A DNA stretch of 64,000 bases. Source: Crambe crambe. Taxonomy: Eukaryota > Porifera > Demospongiae > Poecilosclerida > Crambeidae. The notes under the pieces were generated by a model. The model was not told the origin of the DNA, searched no databases, and saw only the letters and a list, made by a program, of their open reading frames with translations. The position numbers and the translations under genes were made by a program. Position 1 is the stretch's first letter. Every line of letters starts with the position of its first letter. Below are positions 5,401 through 40,800 of the stretch, piece by piece. The stretch is taken from contig OZ004586.1 in NCBI GenBank assembly GCA_963924555.1, positions 3,740,501 to 3,804,500 on the forward strand. The letters are read 5' to 3'.

Positions 5401-7150
5401 GAACTTGGTTGTATGCACGGTCATGCTGTTTTTGAACTGTATGCAATTTGTTGGTGATATCTGACAGAGCACGATTAGTATTTTCCATGCCAACGAGTCA
5501 TGACCTGGAGGTTTGAATAGCTGTACCTATTGTAGATTTCAGGATGGTTGTCCATTTAAGGGCAGTGTAAGGATTTTAAAAAAGAAATTCACCCCTCAAA
5601 TTTAAGCCTTGAATAAACCTGGGTGCATGTATGCACACATAAAATAGCAGTAGGGTAATAGGTACTCCCAAGCATCAAGCATAATAGATGCATAATAAAT
5701 GCAAAAGTCATGCCACAGTGGTGCTGTAAAAGGGTGTGGCTTCAATGAGCATCTCATACAGAATGACCCCCATGGACCACCAGTCGACACCGAAACCATA
5801 TCCCTGTCCCAAAATGACCGCAGGAGCAGCTACATAGCTAGCAGTTGAAAGTAAATTATGGATTCCCTACTTAAATTAGGTTAATTAATGAAATTGTTTG
5901 AAAATCCTGCCTTATGACAGGTCCAGGCACTCAAGTATATCATGAATGAAAACTGTGATCACTCAACATGAAGTGCCAGACAGACTGGCTTTGCTATTGA
6001 ATTTCCTGGAACAGTACAAGCCTTAATTGTTATTGAATTTCCTGGTATCTCAGCCAAATCACAAGCCTTGCTATTGAATTTCTCAAAAAATTAATGTTTC
6101 CCTATAATAATATCTACGATTCCTCCAAGTCACTGGAACATGAGGATGACCATAACAACATAAGGAATGATCAAACAGTGGATGTAGTAAAAAACAGGAT
6201 ATAATAACTGTTTTATTTTAGACTGAAGTCAGTTTAATTAAATGTGCACTGTACGTATATACATACACTTTTTACTGTAAGCATTTTTTTTTAATTTTTT
6301 TTTTACTGTGGTTAAAGTGAACCATGTAGCTATTACCAGTGCATAACCTTTTTTTGTTATCAATTCCAAATAGAATGATTCAAGATCTGCTGGGAGTTCA
6401 TTGCTGAGTGTGATGGATCAGTTAGCTTTTCAGACATTACCTGACAGTGGAAACATATCTGAAGGGAATATTGGTAAGTGATGGTCAATAAGCAATGGTC
6501 CATGGCTATATACAGTAGGTAGATAAAGACTGAACTGAGCAGCTTGCTATAATTATTTGTTTTAGCCAGACATAAAACTTGAAGCACATCCAGCTTACAT
6601 TCATTCACCAAGCAAAGAATATGGCAGAAGGTTGCAGCAAAATAGCTAATTTATCAATTATTAATATGTATATAAAATTCTCACTTTGCAACAGTTACAT
6701 AATAGCTATACATACAGATAACATACCCACCCACTCTAGGTCATTGAACAGTTCATCGACCCACATGATTATGATATCAAGGTCATTATCACCTCATAAA
6801 ATATAGTCCTTGATCTACTAATCTGATTAACAGGTTATTAACAAAATATGTATCCTATATATGATCAAACATAGTTTTCTATAACCATCACAGCCCTCAG
6901 AAGTGATTCTAGAAATAATTTTGTTAAAAAGCTCATTATTAATTTTGAGGTGCTTGTAATTATGAGAACAATTTCACTTGATAGTCCTGATACCATCAGT
7001 CTTGATCAAATTATCTACGCCACTTAGCTATAATATCAACTATAAGCAGAGTCAATTCAAGCAGAATCAATACACTAGTGGCTATAGGAAGTGTATGTTA
7101 GGAGGTATATGTGATATGTGGGGAGTCTTCCAGACAACCTAGGGCTAGCT

Positions 7151-27727: not shown

Positions 27728-30118
27728 GGTATGTAGTGCTCTATCATATAGCTACGTATGTATAATATTAATTAATTGCATTAAACTTTAAACAATAGAA
27801 TATGCTCGAAAGGACAAGAGATTTAGTGTCCATGAAGCCTGCCAGTTCTATTGTACATTGTCTGGGGAGCATTCTTTCCGGTTTCGATTCAACAGATAAA
27901 GACCTGCTAGAAATGTTCAATTGGGTGAGGAGACTCTTAATACTACTGTTTAGCTATTTTATGATTTGTAGTTAATAGCTATGACGAATACATTATTTAA
28001 TTAATGAGTGCAGGCCTTTATCAGAGTTGCTAATGAAATAGTACAAGAAACCTCTGATGGTGAAAAGGTATGCACAATGTTTGGTGGGATAGGAAGATGA
28101 TATTGATTGGTATACCTATTATGCTTCCTCTCAGCTCATTAATTTCTTTTTGCAGGAATATATCACTGCTGAATTCCATTTTATTTTCGAGGGGAAATTA
28201 TATGCAATAGAAGAAAATAGGAACATAGGTAGAATTGGAGAAGTATAGGTCGAAATTTGAGCATACAATCTGCTAAGGTCTTGGGTGTCATTTATGAGGC
28301 AGGTTCACGCACTCAAGTACAGCTTAATTATGAGAATTGGGATCACTCAACTAGAAGTGCCCAGACAGACTAGCCTTGTTATTGAATTCCCTGGAACTGC
28401 AGCCAAATCACAAGCGTATAGCTATTATAATATTAGCTATGATTCCCGGAACATTGAGGATAAGCATTGTAGGGAAACTGTCTCAAAATTATATTCTCAA
28501 TAATGGCAATCACATGTAACTATCTCAAATGTTTTATAACATCGCTAGTGAAAGTCAGTATATTAGAAATCATAATGAATCATGTGAAGCATAATTATAC
28601 AGTCTGTTCTTAGTCATCTGATGTCTAGTGTGGGGGTGTATCCCCAACAAGCATGACTAAGAATGTAAACCATAATGTGTGCATAAGGATTTATCGATTC
28701 CAAATAGAATGATTCAAGATCTGCTGGGAGTTCATTGCTGAGTGTGATGGATCAGTTAGCTTTTCAGACATTACCTGATAGTGGAAACATATCTGAAGGG
28801 AATATCGGTAAGTGATGGCCAAGAATGGTCACTAAGCAATGGGCCATGAACGACTGAACTGAGCAGCTCGTTATAATTCGTCTTAGAGAGATGTACAATT
28901 TGAAGCATATCAAGCTTACATCCTGAAATTGTTTGTGCTTTTTCAAAAGCAAAAATGAATTACAAGCAGAACTGTTCAATAACCTAGAGTGGGTGTGCAT
29001 GCATGTAGCTATTGAGTTGCAAAGTGAGAATATTGAAATTTGCCATGAATTAGTAATTTTGCTGCCACATTCTCTGCTTGATAATATAGCTGTTACCTCA
29101 ACAACGTCTATATTTGGCTTGATATTCCCTCAGTATTGAAGCTACAATATTATGGTTACTTTATAAAGCACAGTCAATTCTATGAGCTGCTACAATAGTG
29201 GCTGTAGGAGGTGTATGTTAAGAGGTATATGTGGGGAGCAGTCTTCCAGGTGACCTATAGGGCTAGCTAGGGGACAGAAACATTGCTTAAAATGTAAGCT
29301 AAGTGGACCATGTGGTGCAGTGTACACATTTCCTTCACACACATTTTTTTTTGCTTTACTATAGCTTTCCAAGCTCGTCTGATATCACCAGAGAGTGGAG
29401 ACCATGTGACAACAATCAACTCCTCCCAGTTCACTAACAATACATTTCCAGAGATGTCCCTTGTAATCCCCCCTGAGATAATTCAGCATGTGTCCAATAA
29501 GAGTGGGAGGGAGGATGGTAGAGTGAGAGCAGTCTCCTTCCTCTATTACAATGTGGAAAATCTATTTCCAAGTGGAAGACCTGGGGAAAATGAGTAAATT
29601 CTTTAATTAACTTAGCTACTCGATAATTGAGTGAATTAGAATTAAATTTTGTATAGCTACCAATTTATGTCAGAATTTGATATCAAGAAATTTAGATGCA
29701 TAACTTGTGAAGACTACAAACTAGATTTGGAGCTTATTGAATAGTATAATGTAATTATTTAGTAATATGTGAAAATAGTAAAATAAATGACTAGCAGGTT
29801 AACAAGAATTATGTTGTGTTTTGTATAGTTCTGTACTGGCATCAGGCATAGTGTCGACTGCTCTGCAATGTGGGAAAGGCAGGTGTTCCACTCAAAACCT
29901 GCAGTTGAATAACCCTGTGATTGTACACATATGATGTCAAGGTGTGTCATGAATAAAATTACGTACCTTGTGTCATTTTCTACTTGTAGGAACGTTTGAT
30001 GAATGGATCATTTGCACTGAATAAAATGAGCTGTGTATTTTGGAATTTTCTGAATGAAAGGTCTACATAGGCTAGCTACATTAGAATTAGTTAGACTGTT
30101 CCCAAGCATTGGACAATT

Positions 30119-30150
30119 TAGGGCTAGGGCTAGGGCTAGGGCTAGGGCTT
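30119..30150 (+). repeat. Telomere-like (AGGGCT)n tract
   Basis: There are about five head-to-tail copies of AGGGCT within intron I/J of gene 4. The matching place in gene 6 lacks them (CATTGGAGTTACTTC). The unit resembles the metazoan telomere repeat TTAGGG with a C replacing one T; it may be a simple microsatellite expansion. Confidence 0.85.
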
Positions 30151-31497: not shown

Positions 31498-31531
31498 ATA
31501 ATAGTCCAACTTCAAAGCAGAAGGTATCAAT

Positions 31532-31832
31532 TATGGCGGGGTATAAGCGTCTTAAACTCTGGGCGAATGTCCCAGTAATCGCCCGGGCATATGTCCGGGC
31601 AAATGCCCGGGCAGTTGCCTGGGCACGGCACAAAAAAGGGGCGTGACGACCACACCTTACCTAAAAAGGGCGGGGCAGATCACAAGTGGGCGTAGCTGGA
31701 CTGCAGACAGATGCCCAGGCAACTGCCCGGGCAATTGCCCGGGCAGATGTCTGGGCGAATGCTGGCCTTCAGTAAAGGGTTCAGGCCAGTCTAGCTTTAT
31801 GCCCAGGCAGAATCGGAATCAGACTTTGTGTG
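31532..31832 (+). repeat. Left terminal inverted repeat with GCCCGGGCA iterons
   Basis: This is about 300 bp, matching the right end almost base for base. It contains clustered copies of a palindromic core (T)GCCCGGGCA spaced about 12 bp apart in two blocks (about 31580-31625 and 31710-31760). The left block has one more iteron than the right end. These are likely transposase-binding sites; the promoter of the HECT gene must lie here or just inside. Confidence 0.85.
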
Positions 31833-31888
31833 TCAGCCTGATTTATGGGCTAGCTGGTGTAGAGCATGCATGTGTAATAGAGCTAGAG

Positions 31889-34800
31889 ATGACTGAAAGG
31901 CCTATAAGATCCAGAGGGCGCCGTTTGCAACTATCTTCGTCTAGGATTCGAGCTCAGAGTCTCTCCAGCAGAGATACAACAACGACAACTGATTCTGCGG
32001 AAGAGTTTATAGAGCCATCTCCATCATCTTTCAGTAGGAGCCGAGGACGAGGTAGAAGCAGATCTTCCACTCCAGCAGCAACTGCTGTATCAAGTAGTAC
32101 TGCAACAGTGACAGCTACTACACCAATAGCCAGTGCTACAGAGAGAGTGTACCGGGCAGTACAGCATGGGTTATCACTCCTTAACTCCACTGCTCCTCTT
32201 CCAACAGAGCTAGGTACCAGGTTCCCATTCTTGAATCAGGGGGGTAGACGCCAAAAAAGACGAAAGATCTCAAAATGGAAAACCATACCCTGCTGTCTCT
32301 CTAAGCCAGATATTAGCAGAGTGCCCACCAAATCAGCAATGGACGACCTCTGCAGAGATGGTATGGGAACTCTATGGTTCAGCAGAGATGAGGAACCATT
32401 AGAACTTGACCTTCTCAGCTCAACTGAGTTACACTACCTTGTTGTATCGCTATACCCTATGCTCAAGAACACGTCATATGAGTTTTGCAGAGCAGGGGGT
32501 CCAGGGCACCAAGTTATCGTTCCCCTGTCCATCGATGACCCAACTCGAATACCAAGCAATGACCAGCCGTTTTTACCATATTTCACGGTGGAGATGCTTA
32601 AAACCTCAATAGGGAGAAAAGGCCGTGTTTATATTCGGCCCTTGAAGGAGGTACGTGGATCACACCGAGTATCACAAGTGGAGGTAATTCCTTCCAGTCT
32701 AATAGCTAACTTAGTGTTTATTATACATCAAATTTAGGCATATACACCCAAGAGATCCATAGATTGCATTGACTGTGTATCACAGATCAGGATTGCAGAC
32801 ATTCCCGATCATATGTACACGTGCAATCATCAACCTGAATTAATAAGTACTTCAGAAAGTGATTCAGGTGTGTTATAATTATGTGCGATTTATGTAGGAG
32901 GCATAATTCAATTCTGGAGATGACACTTATAACTTATTTTATTTTCAGAGTTCTATAGTGATTTATTTAGACCCCCTCGAACTCGGCATACCTCTACTGA
33001 CAACAGATCCCCTCGATCATCACGCTATTCCCCTGAAGAATCCCTTGGTTTCTCAACCCATAGTTCTCCTCAATCTCGGGTTGACACTACTTCAGTAGGT
33101 GGACTTCATGGTGAATCAACTCTTCGTGATTTGCTAACTCGTTCTCCAGTCGATGGTGGCAATTCACATAGTAGTGGCATGGCAACGATGCACAGAGATG
33201 CTGGCACACACAGCACTAGCTTTAGTCAAGAGGCTGGAGGTGGGCAGCAAATTATTGATGAGCTTGATGACGCCATAGAACCGAATGAGTTTGGAGCTAA
33301 CCAAGAGGTGGTTGTTGATGGATCTGATGGTAGCAGTGCCAGGCCTAGTCCAAATGAAGAACTGACTTTATCTGAGGTTGTCCAAGAAGTTCAAGCTGAG
33401 TCTAGTGTTAGCAGTCCCAGTCAAAACGAAGAACCAAATCACTCTGATGTCGAAGTACAGGCTGGATCTATCAATGAGAGGGCATCACTTGAAGAGGTAT
33501 TAGCTACTAATTATGTCTTAGCAAGCTATTGAATATAATTTTGCACATGCACATTCCAGTCTAGACTATACGAGCAGAGCAAGATAGAGCTTTCCAGCAA
33601 AGCCTAGAGATTGACAGAGAGCAGGTGATGTCTTAAAAACTGTGATCCCACAATAGTGCAAATGTTATGTTCTGCTGCAGCAAAGGAATAGTATTATATC
33701 AAGACAAATTACTGAAGATGATGAAATTCAAAATAGGATAGACGAAGTGGATGAACAACAACAACAAAGAAGAATGAATGAGGTTAGTTCTTGTGCAAAA
33801 AAAAGTTGCCACTTTCATTCTGAATACCAACAATAGTGGCATCGGCAGATCCGTTCTGATCTAAGCTTAACGATACCACCAGAGCCTGCCATGGGATTGC
33901 CAAACATAATGAAAGTCCGAGTTCTCTTTCCTGACGGCAGCCGAATATCCAGACGGTTCCTGATGACTGACAGAGTTGATGTACGTATGCATGTATATCA
34001 CTGGTACATGATTTTTTTATACGCATACACAGGCCATTTACGCATTAATTGGTTCACACGAATCCATTAACCCACGAAATTTTCGAGTGCTTGCAAGGTT
34101 TTCTACAATACCAGTACCTCTCACCACGAATAGAGAAATGAGACTTTCTGAATCAGGTCTACCACCATTCTGTGTTGTAATTGGAGAGAATAAACAGGTA
34201 AGTACGCACATAGCAGAATTTAGGTCCAATAATAAATATTAATACCCTTATGCAGAATGAGGAAGTTGCTGTACCGGAAACCCCCCCAGATGTTCACGTA
34301 AGTATCATTATTAGTACATACACTTGTTCAACTGATGAGGGCATCTTCTTTGCTAGTGTGGGAATGGGTGTAGGCATAAATTTTATAGTGGGGGGGGATT
34401 CTAAATTCATTTTTAGCCTGCCCTCTATCAGCATGTATGTAATGTGGTTATGAGTCATGAGTCAGCACATTCATTTATTATGTTATAAAATAATAATTAT
34501 AATTTCTGGGGATTTTTAGCCCCCAAAGCCCCCCCTCCCCCGGTATTTACACCTATGAGTTCACTAATATCGTGCACTGTAGGAAGCTGTCGAAATTGTA
34601 GATCTGACACAGGTAGAGCCTGCATCTCCAAGTGAAAGCGAAAGGTTAGCTAAGAGTGTTAAGCATGCATCTGAAATCACATACATAATTATTACTATTT
34701 CAGGTCATTTTTTCGAGATATAGTGGAAATGGATGGTGGGCGGGCAAATATTCGTGCTAAGCTAATTCAAAATGGCGTGTCCACATTAAATGTGGATCGC

Positions 34801-35784
34801 TCTAACGTTGTTTCTTGTATAATCGATGCATATGCTTCGGATCAAAATCTACATTGGAAGGAGATTAAAGTCCACTTCAATGATGAACGTGGGATTGATA
34901 TGGGTGGTCTACGTCGTGAAGTAGTAAATTGTTTCTGGGATGAGTTCGAGCGTGTCATGGATGGTAGCAGTGCTAAGGTGCCACCAGTAATTCCATCTTA
35001 TCTCCCACAGTTTTATCATATTGGTCGCTTTGTATCTCATGCATATATTCTCACTGGCTATTTCCCCGTTAACTTATCTGTTGTTTGTGCCAAGATTTTG
35101 ATAAATGGTGTGGATGTTCCCTTATCTGATGGTGAGATAGTGTCTTCCTTCTATGACTACATTGATGACTTTGAAAGATCGGCTTTGGAAAAGACAGGTG
35201 AATCACTAACAAGTGACTTGATTGCTAGGGTAATCACCCCGATGTTGAGCCGATTTTATGTGTCAGCTGTAGCAACACGTGAAAACCTTTCTAAGTTAGT
35301 CACCCAAGCTGCAAGATATGCCTTGATAGCAAAGCCATTTTACGCCCTCAGTGAAATGAGAAGGGGTATGCTCAGTTCCCATCCCACACTTTGGAATAGG
35401 TGTACCGGCAACACACTGCTGGTTGATGCTATGTATGAGATGTTGCATCCAACTACCACACGAGTCTGGGAGATGATAGCTGAACCTGACTTCAAGAATC
35501 AATCTGAAGAAGCCGTATATGACTTTCTACGCCGTTTTGTTTATTCTCTAGTTCCTCAAGTGCTGGTAAGATTTCTCAGTTTCATTACTGGATTTTCGGT
35601 TTGTAGCAACAAGAAAATCAAAGTGTTATTTAATTCCATGGAAGGCTTCGAAAGAAGACCCACAGCAAACACATGCACGATGACTCTCCACCTCCCCATA
35701 TCTTATGAGTCATACACTACCTTTTCTGATGAATTTACATCTGTTATAAACAACAGGAATATGTGGTTTTTCGATGTATTTTGA
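31889..35784 (+). CDS. Transposon-borne HECT E3 ubiquitin ligase with UBX-like domain
   Basis: Ten-exon model, about 1031 residues: 31889-32650, 32738-32867, 32949-33496, 33565-33624, 33681-33782, 33837-33980, 34033-34197, 34256-34297, 34583-34644, 34704-35784. Residues 1-120 are Ser/Arg-rich; a basic NLS-like RRQKRRK lies near 190. About 200-254 is a conserved-looking segment ending KGRVYIRPLKE. About 555-637 resembles a UBX/ubiquitin-like fold (VRVLFPDGSRISRRFLMTDR ... ENKQ), which in UBX proteins binds p97. VEIVDLT near 655 matches a SUMO-interaction motif. The HECT domain fills 680-1031 with HFNDERGIDMGGLRRE and the catalytic Cys in RRPTANTCTM (codon 35674-35676, about residue 996). The open frame extends upstream into the terminal repeat, so the start at 31889 is a choice. 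Splice sites are predicted from GT/AG and frame. Its role in transposition is unknown. Confidence 0.78.
34358..34560. mobile_element. Small MITE inside a HECT-gene intron
   Basis: The termini ATGGGTGTAGGCATAAA and GGTATTTACACCTAT are imperfect inverted copies, followed inward by G-runs and a GGGGATTTTTAGCCCCC hairpin. The ends resemble those of the 18957-20485 element, so both may belong to one family. It lies wholly in the intron between the exons ending 34297 and starting 34583. Confidence 0.6.
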
Positions 35785-35799
35785 TAACTTCTCTCACAG

Positions 35800-36005
35800 T
35801 TGCTCACTCATGATCACTCTTTGAACAATGCTCAATTTTTTCATAATCACTCATGAACCTTAACTCTAAATTCAGTCACAATCTTTGAATAATGGTCTTT
35901 TTTTTTCACGATCACTCATGAACCTAAACTCATAGCTAGCTATCCTCTTTCTTTTTTTCACAATCACTCATGAACCTCAATAACTCTAAACTCAGTCACT
36001 CCTCC
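35800..36005. repeat. Three degenerate repeats between the convergent transposon genes
   Basis: ATCACTCATGAACC recurs at about 35840, 35911 and 35963, each followed by TAACTC-like and T-run sequence, in the 300-bp gap between the HECT stop (35784) and the integrase stop (36087). It probably forms the shared 3' UTR/terminator region of the two genes. Confidence 0.7.
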
Positions 36006-36086
36006 CATAATCAACTTCACAAGATTTGTGCAATTACTTCATCAATAATATTATTTTGATACAGGTTATTGGCTATAATAGGTCAT

Positions 36087-37632
36087 TCAATCAGAGGACT
36101 CACTGGCCACATCAATCAGAAATTCCAGAACACTAACATAAATATCAATACCCCACACGAAACTTTCTTGCAATGGGTCAATTGACTGTTCTAGGTCTTG
36201 GAGGGGAACTCCGTGTAATGATCCATTGTCTTCTGACTCTGTGGTTCTAGACCTATCTACATCAGGTACATAATCTGTCATGCTTGTAGCCTCAGAAGCG
36301 AAAACCTCTTGGATAGGCAAATGTGCTGAATGATAGTTTTGAAGCATTCCAGTAACCCATAGTTGAATTGGACTTAGGTTACCAGCTGTTCGTATTGGAT
36401 GCCTGTTCCAGGCCCCAAGAAATGCAACCAGAGATCGATTAATTCGAGGTCTATAAACATACTGAAGTGCAAAAATATGCAGGTCATTTTCAATATCCAA
36501 AATGCCATTGTTTTCCATGAAATAAAAGAGGTGGTAGTAAGTACTCAGGCATCCAGTGAATACATCCCTCCAAAAGCGTTCTATACGCTGGTTGTTTACT
36601 GATCTTCCCGTAAGATGGCTCCCCCGATCAGTACCTCTCACAAGAGTCATAAAGTGAGCAACAGAAATGTTCTCTCCTCCAAAGTCTGATCTCACTCGAG
36701 ATGGGAAACCATATCTCTCACCACCTCTAACAAACTGAGCCAAAACAGTTTCAGAATTGTTATAGGTTGAACAATGCAGGTAAGTCACAAGGCGGCTGTA
36801 TCCATCCACTGCCCCATGAACAGTAAAGCTCCACCTGTTCAGGCTCATGTTGCCATCAATGTGCCAAATGGCATTGGGATATGGTACCGAATATTGTCTT
36901 CGATGTATCCTGCCATTTCGACTCCATCTGTATGCTACTGATAATGGATCAGTGCGAGCAAGTGATTCTCTGACTCTTCTTTCCTGGATTCTGAGTCCTC
37001 TATTAAGCAGGTGGCTACGGATCATTCTATATCCAGAATTGGGATGTTCGCTTACAATTTCTGCCACTAAATCATCAAGCTCTGTGTCAGGTAAGGGAGC
37101 GTATGTCTGTCGAATGGACAGTCCATACAGTTGCATTCTTCTTCGAACTGTTGCCTGAGACACACCGAGTAGAGTTGCAATTTCAGGAACAGTAAAATTA
37201 ATTCCAACCAGGTACTCGAGTTGATTTTGTGGTATGGAGAAAGGAGGCCTTCCCTGCTGACCTGTATCATAAAGAACCCTGATTTAATATCTATGTTGCC
37301 AAGTAGCTACTATTGGTATGTTTACCATCAAAATCCTGATGAGATATGTAAGCATCATCATTGGAACCTATTCTTCTTCCTCTTTGTCCCAAAGATCTCA
37401 ACACTTCATGCAGACCATCTATAATGTTTTGATGGTTCTCCCTTCCTAACAAGTGAGATAGACGTTCTACATTCCTCAAGGAATCTCTTAGACGCAGTTG
37501 AAATCCATGAATTCTATCATGGAAGATGCTACCATCCCTGCAAGAATGCTGTACCTCTGATAGAAGTCTTCCTACGCCCTCTAGAACTTCTATAGAGCTG
37601 AATGAAACAGCAGCCCTACTTCTTCTTGCCAT
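36087..37632 (-). CDS. IS3-type DD34E integrase/transposase
   Basis: Two-exon model on the minus strand, about 493 residues: exon 1 37632-37326 (ATG at 37632-37630), intron with GTAAAC donor and ACAG acceptor, exon 2 37261-36087. The N-terminus (1-100) is a helical Arg-rich region. About 120-150 is an HTH (FTVPEIATLLGVSQATVRRR). About 170-215 resembles the IS3-family HTH_21 linker (EHPNSGYRMIRSHL). The catalytic core has D in WHIDGNMSL, D in VRSDFGGEN and E in NNQRIERFWRDVF; the last two are 34 residues apart. C-terminal acidic tail. All catalytic residues are present. It would bind the terminal repeats and cut and join the element. The start codon lies only about 20 bp inside the right terminal repeat, so the promoter is probably within it. 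Confidence 0.85.
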
Positions 37633-37652
37633 TTACGTGCTAGAGACACACG

Positions 37653-37943
37653 GGCACACAAAGTCTGATTCCGATTCTGCCTGGGCATAAAGCTAGACTG
37701 GCCTGAACCCTTTACTGGACGCCAGCATTCGCCCAGACATCTGCCCGGGCAGTTGCCTGGGCATCTGTCTGCAGTCCAGCTACGCCCACTTGTGATCTGC
37801 CCCGCCCTTTTTAGGTAAGGTGTGATCGTCACGCCCCTTTTTTGTGCCGTGCCCAGGTAACTGCCCGGGCATTTGCCCGGACATATGCCCGGGTGATTAC
37901 TGGGACATTCGCCCAGAGTTTAAGACGCTTATACCCCGCCATA
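37653..37943 (-). repeat. Right terminal inverted repeat
   Basis: It is the inverted partner of 31532-31832 and differs by a handful of substitutions and by the lack of one GGCAATTGCCCGG iteron present on the left. It carries the GCCCGGGCA-type core sites and reaches to within about 20 bp of the integrase start codon. Confidence 0.85.
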
Positions 37944-37972
37944 ATCAATTGTTGTAGCACTATTGCAAAGTG

Positions 37973-38390: not shown

Positions 38391-40800
38391 AAAGTGTGTT
38401 GATTACACTCAAGTATAACATTAATACAATGCAATAAATATTCTAAATATTTGCAAAATTAACGAATAATTTCCAGATAATTTTTCCAATTATTTTTTTA
38501 GTTCTCAAAATCAGAGCAGGGGACAGTGGGAAGACCGTGGGTGTTTCAGGAATCAAGACCTCTCAAACTCATCAGTGACAGTGTGTGAATGTAGACATCT
38601 CACTCACTTTGCCATATTGCTAAGTCCAGCACCTCTAAACATCTCAAAACCAGTCAGGCTTTCTCTGGAGATCATAGGTTATGTGGGTGTGTCGGTATCA
38701 CTGGTTGCCATGGCTCTTACTGTATTTACATTCTTAGTCATGAAGTAAGTTAGTATTATATAACATGCTGTGATACCTGGAATTGTAGTTAGTTTAATTT
38801 GGAATTAGTCTCATTTTTCATTACCAGAAAGTACTATAACAGATGCTTTGCATAGCAGTCATAATTATTATAATTATACAGATCACTGCACAACATGCGC
38901 AACTTTGTTCATGTGAATCTCTGCATCAGTCTGGGAATTGCTCAAATCATTTTTGTATCCGGTATCAATCAATATGGGACTGATCATGTTCCTATCCGCT
39001 GTAAAGTGGTGGCTGTCCTCCTCCACTACTTCTTCCTGGTATCCTTCATGTGGATGCTGATGGAGGGTGTGGTACTCTACGTGCTTCTCGTGAAAGTGTT
39101 CATCAAGAAAAAGATTCGGTACTTGTTAGCATTTTTCTTTGCCAGCTATGGAGTTCCTCTGATCTACATGGGGATTCTTACCTTACCTCTTGGCTTTGCT
39201 TTGCCAGCATCAATGCAACCAAATTATGGTTACGGTTCTGCGTAAGTAATTGGATATCTGTGTGTACTATGATAGCTCTTTGGGCAATTGGATTGGTGAT
39301 AAGGGAATTGGTTACATGCAGGAAATGTGTAGAATCAATCACAGCCACTTAAGTTGAACTAGAGTATGTAAATTAGAAGCAGTAGAACTACGTACTGCAT
39401 GCATGAAGAATAAGCATATAGCTTGGGATCCAAGCTCAAAAATTTAGTTTACGGGAAATTTCAGGCATCCAAGTAACTAGTGAATATTAATTTAGGTTGA
39501 CAGTTAATGTACGTTAATGTTATTGTTAATTCCATTCATATTATTTGCAGCTGCTACTTGAACCCAGAGACCAAATTCACATGGGCCTTGATAGTTCCAG
39601 TGATTGTGATATTTTTGGCCAATAGCTGTTTCCTTGTGATGACAGCTGTGATTATGTGGCGGCACAAGATGAAAGAGATTGATAAGACAAAAATCCAGAA
39701 TATCAAGTGAGTTGGATTGCATGCCTAGCACCTGTGGCCTTTTTATTCAGCTTTTCCCTCCTATAGCTACGCATGAAAGGGGGGGGGTGGTCATATCAAG
39801 TCCTCCCCTCCCCTAAAATTGTGGCCTCCTGCATTTCACCTTGGATTATCTGTTCCTCTTTCTAGGAATTGGTTGAGGGGTACATTTTCTTTGGTGCTGA
39901 TAATGGGTCTGACGTGGATATTTGGGACAATAATTGTTAAAGTGGAGGCACTCTTACCCTTTGCCTACATCTACACCATTTTGGTGGCTTTTCAAGGTCT
40001 CTTCATCTTCTTCATTTTTGTGGTCTTCTCCAAACAAGCGAGGGGAGCTTACACCAAATGTTGGAGGGTGAAAGTCAATGAATCTGACGTACTCCACAAG
40101 TATTTTGGTGAAAAACTTACATCAACAAAAGTATGTTTTGAAGTTGCTATCTAGCTACTAAAATGTTCCCTTCCTTCTCCTTTTCCCTCTCTTTGCGTCC
40201 CCTCCCCTCCTTCCCTTCTTTTCTCCCTCTATTCCTTCAGCCAAGTTTGCCAAGGACGACCCCGAGATTGGGGAGTGGGTTGTCTTCATCTCGAGATATG
40301 CTCAATCCTGGGAATATGCTGTCTCTGAAAGACAAAGGTGCACATGGGACTTCTCTCTCTCTCTATCTCAAGATCAAGAGTGTCCTGATTCCAGGAATAG
40401 TATGCCATCAGTAAATATAGGTTGGTCCAACTATCCGAATGACACAAAGAACTCAGAAGAAGATGATGTCATAGAAAACCATTATGTTGAAACTCCACTT
40501 TCTCTGTGAAGGCAGTTTTCCTTTTCTTCTTATTTTTGTGGTTAGCATTAGCTAGCTATAATTATGGTTGTCTAACTATAGCCAACTTCTTTATATTAAA
40601 ATGATTAGCTACAATTATCACTGATGATTGAAGCCACTATAATAATTATTATGTATACTTTTATAAAGGTACAGAGTTAAGACATAAAAGGTATCAATAC
40701 AGCAGTACAATGACATTGTTATTCTGATCATTATTCTGAGCATGAATATGACAGCTTGTGGGATTCAGTTAAATTTTTATCACCATTAATTACCACAGTG

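Follow-up and report, generated by a model that had tools for sequence, protein, structure and literature searches.

Why should an IS3EU transposon encode a HECT ubiquitin ligase beside its integrase, and does this gene belong to the element or merely travel with it? The question is raised by an element of 6,412 bp in the sponge Crambe crambe. Divergent HECT genes are present in excess in animal genomes, and to our knowledge only a few transposons carry enzymes that might act on host defence, those with TET in fungi being one case. According to the available part of one account (PMC10045372), IS3EU elements have TA..TA ends, usually a 6-bp target-site duplication (TSD) and an IS3/IS481-like DDE transposase. 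The accessible part of a second account (PMC12730594) gives TAYGG..CCRTA ends for IS3EU in Pucciniales and describes fungal IS3EU that carry TET and alpha-kinase genes, in which the alpha-kinase gene is opposite in orientation to the transposase gene and TET is proposed to aid escape from silencing. Here we analyse a 64,000-nucleotide (nt) window of C. crambe contig OZ004586.1 (assembly GCA_963924555.1), to which all coordinates refer unless a locus is named, together with loci L009–L042, which were compared with the window element. From the structure of the element, its copies, its protein domains, the invariant active sites and the recurrent pairing of the two genes, we conclude that the HECT gene is no recent passenger in IS3EU elements and is the usual partner of the integrase.

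The element occupies positions 31532–37943, has the termini TATGG...CCATA and is flanked by exactly matching copies of ATCAAT (31526–31531 on the left and 37944–37949 on the right). Its terminal inverted repeats (TIRs) are ~290–300 bp long, element positions 1–301 and 6124–6412 matching at 94%. The left TIR (31532–31832) opens TATGGCGGGG and carries palindromic arrays of the TGCCCGGGCA type at 12-bp spacing, and the right TIR (37655–37943) closes ...CCCCGCCATA; the inverted arms 31530–31749 and 37726–37945 are 96% complementary, and 31716–31832 and 37655–37771 are 94% complementary. The 12-bp palindromic repeats are plausible integrase-binding sites. Two genes lie within the TIRs, arranged convergently, tail to tail: an integrase gene on the minus strand and a HECT gene on the plus strand. 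The DD34E integrase gene (36087–37632) encodes 493 amino acids, contains a single 64-bp GT–AG intron (37262–37325) and matches the Pfam family rva_4 with 279 bits; 34 residues separate the second D of the catalytic triad from its E. The window element thus combines TA..TA termini, a 6-bp TSD and an IS3/IS481-like DDE transposase. An original prediction, made from the sequence of this stretch, had described the TATGG...CCATA termini, inverted repeats of ~300 bp, a 6-bp duplication and an IS3-type DD34E integrase; the arms, the ATCAAT on both sides, the rva_4 match and the D–E spacing bear it out on each of these points.

To place the gene pair in its genome (143 Mb, 119 contigs; copy counts are lower bounds), 120 Pfam HECT rows were merged by hand into 71 loci and split at 42 bits, a threshold picked after seeing the table. 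These were set beside 94 integrase loci among the matches listed (155 in all), short fragments and second rows per locus having been dropped. Among the integrases listed, a match is found no more than 8 kb from 33 of the 43 low-scoring HECT loci (26 convergent pairs, 6 divergent, 1 tandem), or from 27 of 37 when the six focal copies are excluded; none of the 28 high-scoring loci has such a neighbour, and the chance expectation is about 0.01 per locus. The pairing is also seen from the side of the integrase. Strong integrases, defined as matches of at least 200 bits, number 52 among the matches listed, six being focal copies, and 36 of them have a HECT gene within 8 kb (33 convergent, 3 divergent), counting Pfam matches plus ten matches of our own profile.

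Within the focal family, the element termini occur at at least seven other genomic places, and at least five further long copies (L009–L013) are 98.7–99.3% identical to the window element. Exact 6-bp duplications flank L009 (TCCGGG), L011 (TTTGAC), L012 (ATCTGT) and L013 (CCAGAG), giving exact TSDs for five of the six long copies found, window included; the flanks of L010, which is embedded in a repeat array, do not match. The HECT gene is carried by all five other long copies found, but is damaged in two of them: an in-frame stop interrupts it in L009, and in L011, which is short of ~320 bp, it has lost exon 2 completely and exon 1 in part. In the same five copies, neither stops nor length differences were counted in the coding exons of the integrase. 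L014 and L015 are truncated copies that retain one terminus apiece, bordered by the same flank, and L016 consists of an internal fragment. The original prediction had named copies with the same termini but no HECT gene as the sign of a captured passenger, and had proposed a genome-wide count of copies with 6-bp duplications: among the at least seven places no TIR-bounded copy without HECT was found, and the count gives at least five long copies, four with their own exact TSD. Relative to the window copy, the ratio of non-synonymous to synonymous differences (pN/pS) in the five copies is 0.3–0.67 for HECT and 0.24–0.73 for the integrase, on 4–15 differences each, which are too few to prove selection. 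L009 and L010 (G000:C1:5438680-5451653) are ~99% copies that lie in opposite orientation ~130 bp apart, L010 within a tandem-repeat array.

The association extends to diverged families. Starting from the window sequence, an iterated HECT profile matched in 13 of 17 integrase-centred loci (L017–L033), with no match in the fetched stretches of L023, L024, L030 and L033. In five of the 17 loci, TATG..CATA inverted repeats with exact 6-bp TSDs enclose both genes (L017 GACTAG, L019 CTACAT, L027 CAGCAC, L028 TTGTCA, L032 GAAATC); no clean pair of such ends with a TSD was found in the remaining 12. An open reading frame (ORF) of L023/L024 resembles, by eye, the N-terminal portion of HECT proteins of the L028 type, and the HECT end would lie beyond the fetched stretch. 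The L033 family was considered as one without HECT and rejected as such, as L036, which lies beside the sister copy L034, has HECT-like ORFs by our own profile (E 7.5e-13 and 4e-4). L030 (G000:C1:8462707-8472706) contains two integrase copies in 2.1-kb inverted repeats that are 99.4% identical, and no HECT was found there.

The active sites of both proteins are conserved across these families. In 15 of the 15 families compared, window included, the D, D and E of the integrase are invariant, as are the HECT Cys and the Thr that precedes it; the 15 are those with enough aligned columns, and their choice by profile similarity favours conserved sequences. Left out were the near-duplicates L017, L022 and L034, then L038, with 59 HECT columns, and also L023, L024 and L030, whose fetched stretches contain no HECT; the L033 entry combines the integrase of L033 with the HECT of L036. 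Distances between HECT sequences correlate with those between integrases (r=0.45, 105 pairs, Mantel p=0.0004), and the two trees have 5 of 12 bipartitions in common (shuffled mean 0.25, maximum 3 in 2000).

The same pair occurs on a contig that is assigned to the symbiont of another sponge. A prokaryote genome collection searched with the integrase alignment yielded four contigs, 44–52% identical and all in metagenome-assembled genomes (MAGs) of sponge symbionts (Poecilosclerida sp., Iophon sp.): LWTN01000118.1, LWTN01000139.1, QPIL01000069.1 and LWTN01000127.1 (L039–L042). These IS3EU-like contigs are probably host DNA contamination. QPIL01000069.1 (L041, 8.2 kb) carries the integrase together with a convergent HECT gene (E=6.6e-90; Pfam 28.5 bits, over the cut-off) with the sequence RRPVAHTC, and upstream of it stretches resembling a SUMO-interaction motif (SIM), FAF and UBX, the UBX-like piece having no Pfam match. 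No HECT was found in the other three contigs, one of which ends inside the integrase and one of which runs into a retroelement-like ORF. In viral contigs, searches with the integrase and with the HECT alignments found no relative.

The predicted HECT ligase gene (31889–35784, plus strand) consists of ten exons (31889–32683, 32738–32867, 32949–33496, 33565–33624, 33681–33782, 33837–33980, 34033–34197, 34256–34297, 34583–34644 and 34704–35784) separated by nine GT–AG introns, and encodes 1,042 amino acids. The HECT domain (residues 776–1034; 34981–35757) matches PF00632 with 37.3 bits (cut-off 23.9), and the catalytic Cys is residue 1007 (codon 35674–35676), within RRPTANTC. At the start of exon 4, the window copy is 1 nt shorter than all five of the other long copies. 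With the nearer AG acceptor, an early stop leaves 506 amino acids, and the frame is open only via an AG acceptor 5 nt further on; the HECT of the window copy may therefore be impaired. In the longer exon 4 form, which uses the nearer acceptor, the stretch resembles by eye its counterparts in L028, L035 and L041. The original prediction of a ligase of ~1031 residues with ten junctions, both frames of the element being open, stands as regards the HECT domain, its catalytic Cys and the open integrase frame; it gives way to the present model in length and number of introns, and the openness of the window HECT frame depends on the alternative exon 4 acceptor.

Upstream of the HECT domain, the protein has a conserved N-terminal domain of the YPxL...YEFC...YIRPL type (32240–32683, plus strand), which is recognized in alignments with L017 and L018 and has no Pfam match in the window protein. 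It is followed by a zinc-finger-like motif read by eye, CxxC-x11-HxxxC (32765–32824, plus strand), which recurs with equal spacing in an L018 ORF and as a similar CxxC-x11-HxC in L025; Pfam matches it in neither the window protein nor the L018 ORF. By eye, two N-terminal types can be told apart, that of the window, L017, L018 and L025 versus that of L023, L028, L033, L035 and L041. The second, of the RDIxCLP..IPRG..GLIGKI type, lies at L023 993–1586 (−), L033 8639–9361 (+), L028 3036–3800 (+), L035 6409–6927 (−) and L041 7893–8231 (−), and its ORFs in L023, L028 and L035 have no Pfam match over the cut-off.

The central region resembles FAF1, a UBX-domain cofactor of p97. Residues 570–634 (33909–34155, plus strand; one intron splits the domain) match the UBX family PF00789 with 24.5 bits (cut-off 21), and a FAF1-like motif, EQDRAFQQSLEIDREQ (33565–33624, plus strand), aligns with FAF1 and has similar counterparts in L028, L035 and L041. 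The stretch around the UBX domain matches FAF1 (PDB 11ta) with E=5.6e-8, which, with the Pfam score, upholds the UBX domain of the original prediction. UBX-like sequences in other families score lower: L017 reaches the Pfam cut-off (21.2 bits) only with neighbours in frame, and L018 (20.5 bits), L025 (17.5 and 16.1 bits in profile order, from two ORFs) and L035 (15.1 bits) fall below it; our own UBX profile has matches in L017, L018 and L025. The p97-contact loop of UBX cofactors has the form FP(R/N), for example FPR, and reads by eye ILPR in L018, FPPK in L025, FPRQ in L035 and MPRK in L028.

Exon 9 contains VEIVDLT (34589–34609, plus strand), which resembles a SIM. Three SIM-like patterns, A, B and C, picked after seeing examples, were scanned over 16 regions with shuffles as control. 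Pattern A has 5 occurrences versus 2.68 in shuffled sequences (window, L020, L031, L032), pattern B 5 versus 0.42 (L021, L027, L028, L035, L041) and pattern C 4 versus 0.14; each has none in antisense frames. Pattern A or B is present in 9 of the 16 regions. These patterns suggest a SIM in the HECT protein at most. The VEIVDLT of the original prediction is present, but it is statistically weak, and the nearest relatives, L018 and L025, do not have it.

Around the element, a gene for a secretin/adhesion-type G-protein-coupled receptor (GPCR) appears to hold or adjoin it, with 7tm_2 matches of 88 and 26 bits (38874–39245 and 39777–40154, plus strand). A possible upstream GPCR exon near 29365–29600 is GAIN-like by eye, without a Pfam match. 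A short run of telomere-like GGGCTA repeats lies upstream of the element at 30120–30149.

What might the ligase do? From these sequences we infer its ligase activity, its binding to p97 and SUMO, and its targets. We tentatively favour, with slightly less than even confidence, a recently mobile IS3EU transposon with two core genes, whose HECT ligase would pass ubiquitinated nuclear proteins at the element to p97. The DD34E integrase would bind the element's ends, perhaps via the 12-bp palindromes in the TIRs, and make 6-bp-staggered insertions. The second gene would supply a HECT ligase whose active-site Cys is intact and which also has a FAF1-like UBX stretch and perhaps motifs that bind SUMO; this ligase would recognize nuclear proteins at the element, ubiquitinate them and hand them over to the p97 unfoldase. 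By this route, either host silencing complexes could be stripped off transposon chromatin, or the stable integrase–DNA complex could be dismantled after strand transfer; p97-coupled clearance in general is what we favour, and no firm choice is made between silencing proteins and the integrase as targets. Both kinds of target had been suggested in the original prediction, as control of host silencing or of integrase turnover.

Several observations weigh against this proposal. Among the matches listed, 16 of the 52 strong integrases have no HECT found nearby, although four of these have match scores equal to those of the L033/L034 family, in which the C9 copy includes a HECT-like stretch. The HECT assignment of the longer L036 ORF, which has no Pfam match, and of the N-lobe ORFs of L032 and L037, which have none over the cut-off, rests on our own iterated profile; at the C-lobes of L032 and L037, Pfam HECT matches reach 36 and 38 bits. 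Some of the splits shared by the two trees are poorly supported in the HECT tree (0.50, 0.63), and the positions of L028 and L035 disagree between the two trees, so HECT exchange between integrase lineages is possible. FAF1 chains with the UBX domain alone score E 0.7–0.9 against the window stretch, so that the motif and the linker account for most of the likeness to FAF1. As the contact loop of the window copy is degenerate (TIPVP), p97 docking of the window protein is unproven. SIM patterns A and B are absent in 7 of the 16 regions (L018, L019, L025, L026, L029, L036, L037), L018 and L025 being among the window's closest relatives, and pattern A, at 5 versus 2.68, is not clearly above shuffling.

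The ligase might instead target only its own integrase, one of the two targets between which no choice is made above, limiting the lifetime of that protein or stripping the strand-transfer complex via p97, much as ClpX acts on the MuA strand-transfer complex, with no silencing role. The recurrent pairing, the correlated divergence of both genes and the FAF1-like UBX stretch would fit such a role; the conflict over L028 and L035, however, suggests HECT swaps between integrase lineages, and the SIM-like motifs, though weak, would be left unexplained where present. We consider this restriction to the integrase unlikely. Slightly more unlikely in our view is an effector acting on the other target, an anti-silencing protein of the SUMO-targeted type, comparable to viral ICP0, which would extract or degrade SUMO-marked chromatin proteins. 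It would account for the SIM-like patterns in nine regions, and it is consistent with the requirement of Piwi-directed silencing for SUMO in C. elegans (available part of PMC8131101) and with the TET-bearing fungal IS3EU (available part of PMC12730594); yet the patterns are post hoc, and of A and B only B is clearly above shuffling. Broader still, the whole lineage of animal IS3EU might encode an ancestral core ligase of the HECT type, p97-coupled and SUMO-reading, by which silencing complexes marked with SUMO would be taken apart at the element; we regard this as doubtful. Both SUMO-based readings are graded lower because the nearest relatives, L018 and L025, lack the motif.

That the HECT gene is a hitch-hiker without function for the element is very unlikely and largely refuted by conservation. 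The 16 strong integrases with no HECT found nearby could speak for it, as could the damage to HECT in L009 and L011 and the missing nucleotide in the window copy, set beside integrase coding exons without a counted stop or length change in the five other copies. Against it stand the invariant Cys and Thr in all 15 families compared, the convergent layout at 33 of the 52 strong integrases listed, the same pair on the contig from the other sponge's symbiont bin, and the match scores that four of these 16 integrases have in common with the L033/L034 family. A host gene enclosed by the TIRs by chance, for which one might cite the commonness of HECT genes in animals and the 28 high-scoring HECT loci away from integrases among those listed, is refuted by the copies, at least five of them long, and by the exact TSDs around both genes in the focal family, L017, L019, L027, L028 and L032.

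If a transposon lineage regularly carries the gene for a UBX-bearing ubiquitin ligase, transposition would be linked to the host ubiquitin machinery. The association would also explain many divergent HECT genes of this genome, where 33 of 43 low-scoring loci adjoin integrases among those listed, and animal HECT gene counts may need correcting for transposon genes. Were the ligase indeed a p97-coupled, SUMO-reading core component, part of the divergent animal HECT excess would consist of transposon rather than host genes.

The window element shares with known IS3EU its TA..TA termini, its 6-bp TSD and its IS3/IS481-like transposase, as far as the available part of PMC10045372 describes them. 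It differs in its second gene: HECT and ubiquitin are absent from the main texts of PMC10045372 and PMC12730594, whereas here HECT is the usual partner. In the literature searched, which did not extend to Repbase reports or most subscription papers, we found neither a published IS3EU with HECT nor a transposon-encoded HECT ligase. Like the TET-bearing fungal IS3EU, as presented in the available part of PMC12730594, the element has an extra gene opposite to the transposase gene and an extra enzyme for which a role against silencing can be proposed; unlike it, those elements carry TET and an alpha-kinase in place of HECT and UBX. Compared with the HECT ligases HUWE1, TOM1 and NEDD4, identity is low, and the window HECT sequence alone retrieved no PDB chain at E<=0.01, but a four-sequence profile aligns across the N- and C-lobes (HUWE1, E=2e-13) with the Cys kept. 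With FAF1, the window protein has in common the EQDxAxxxSLxxD motif, the linker, the PPEP and the start of the UBX domain, and it differs in that this UBX stretch is joined to a HECT domain.

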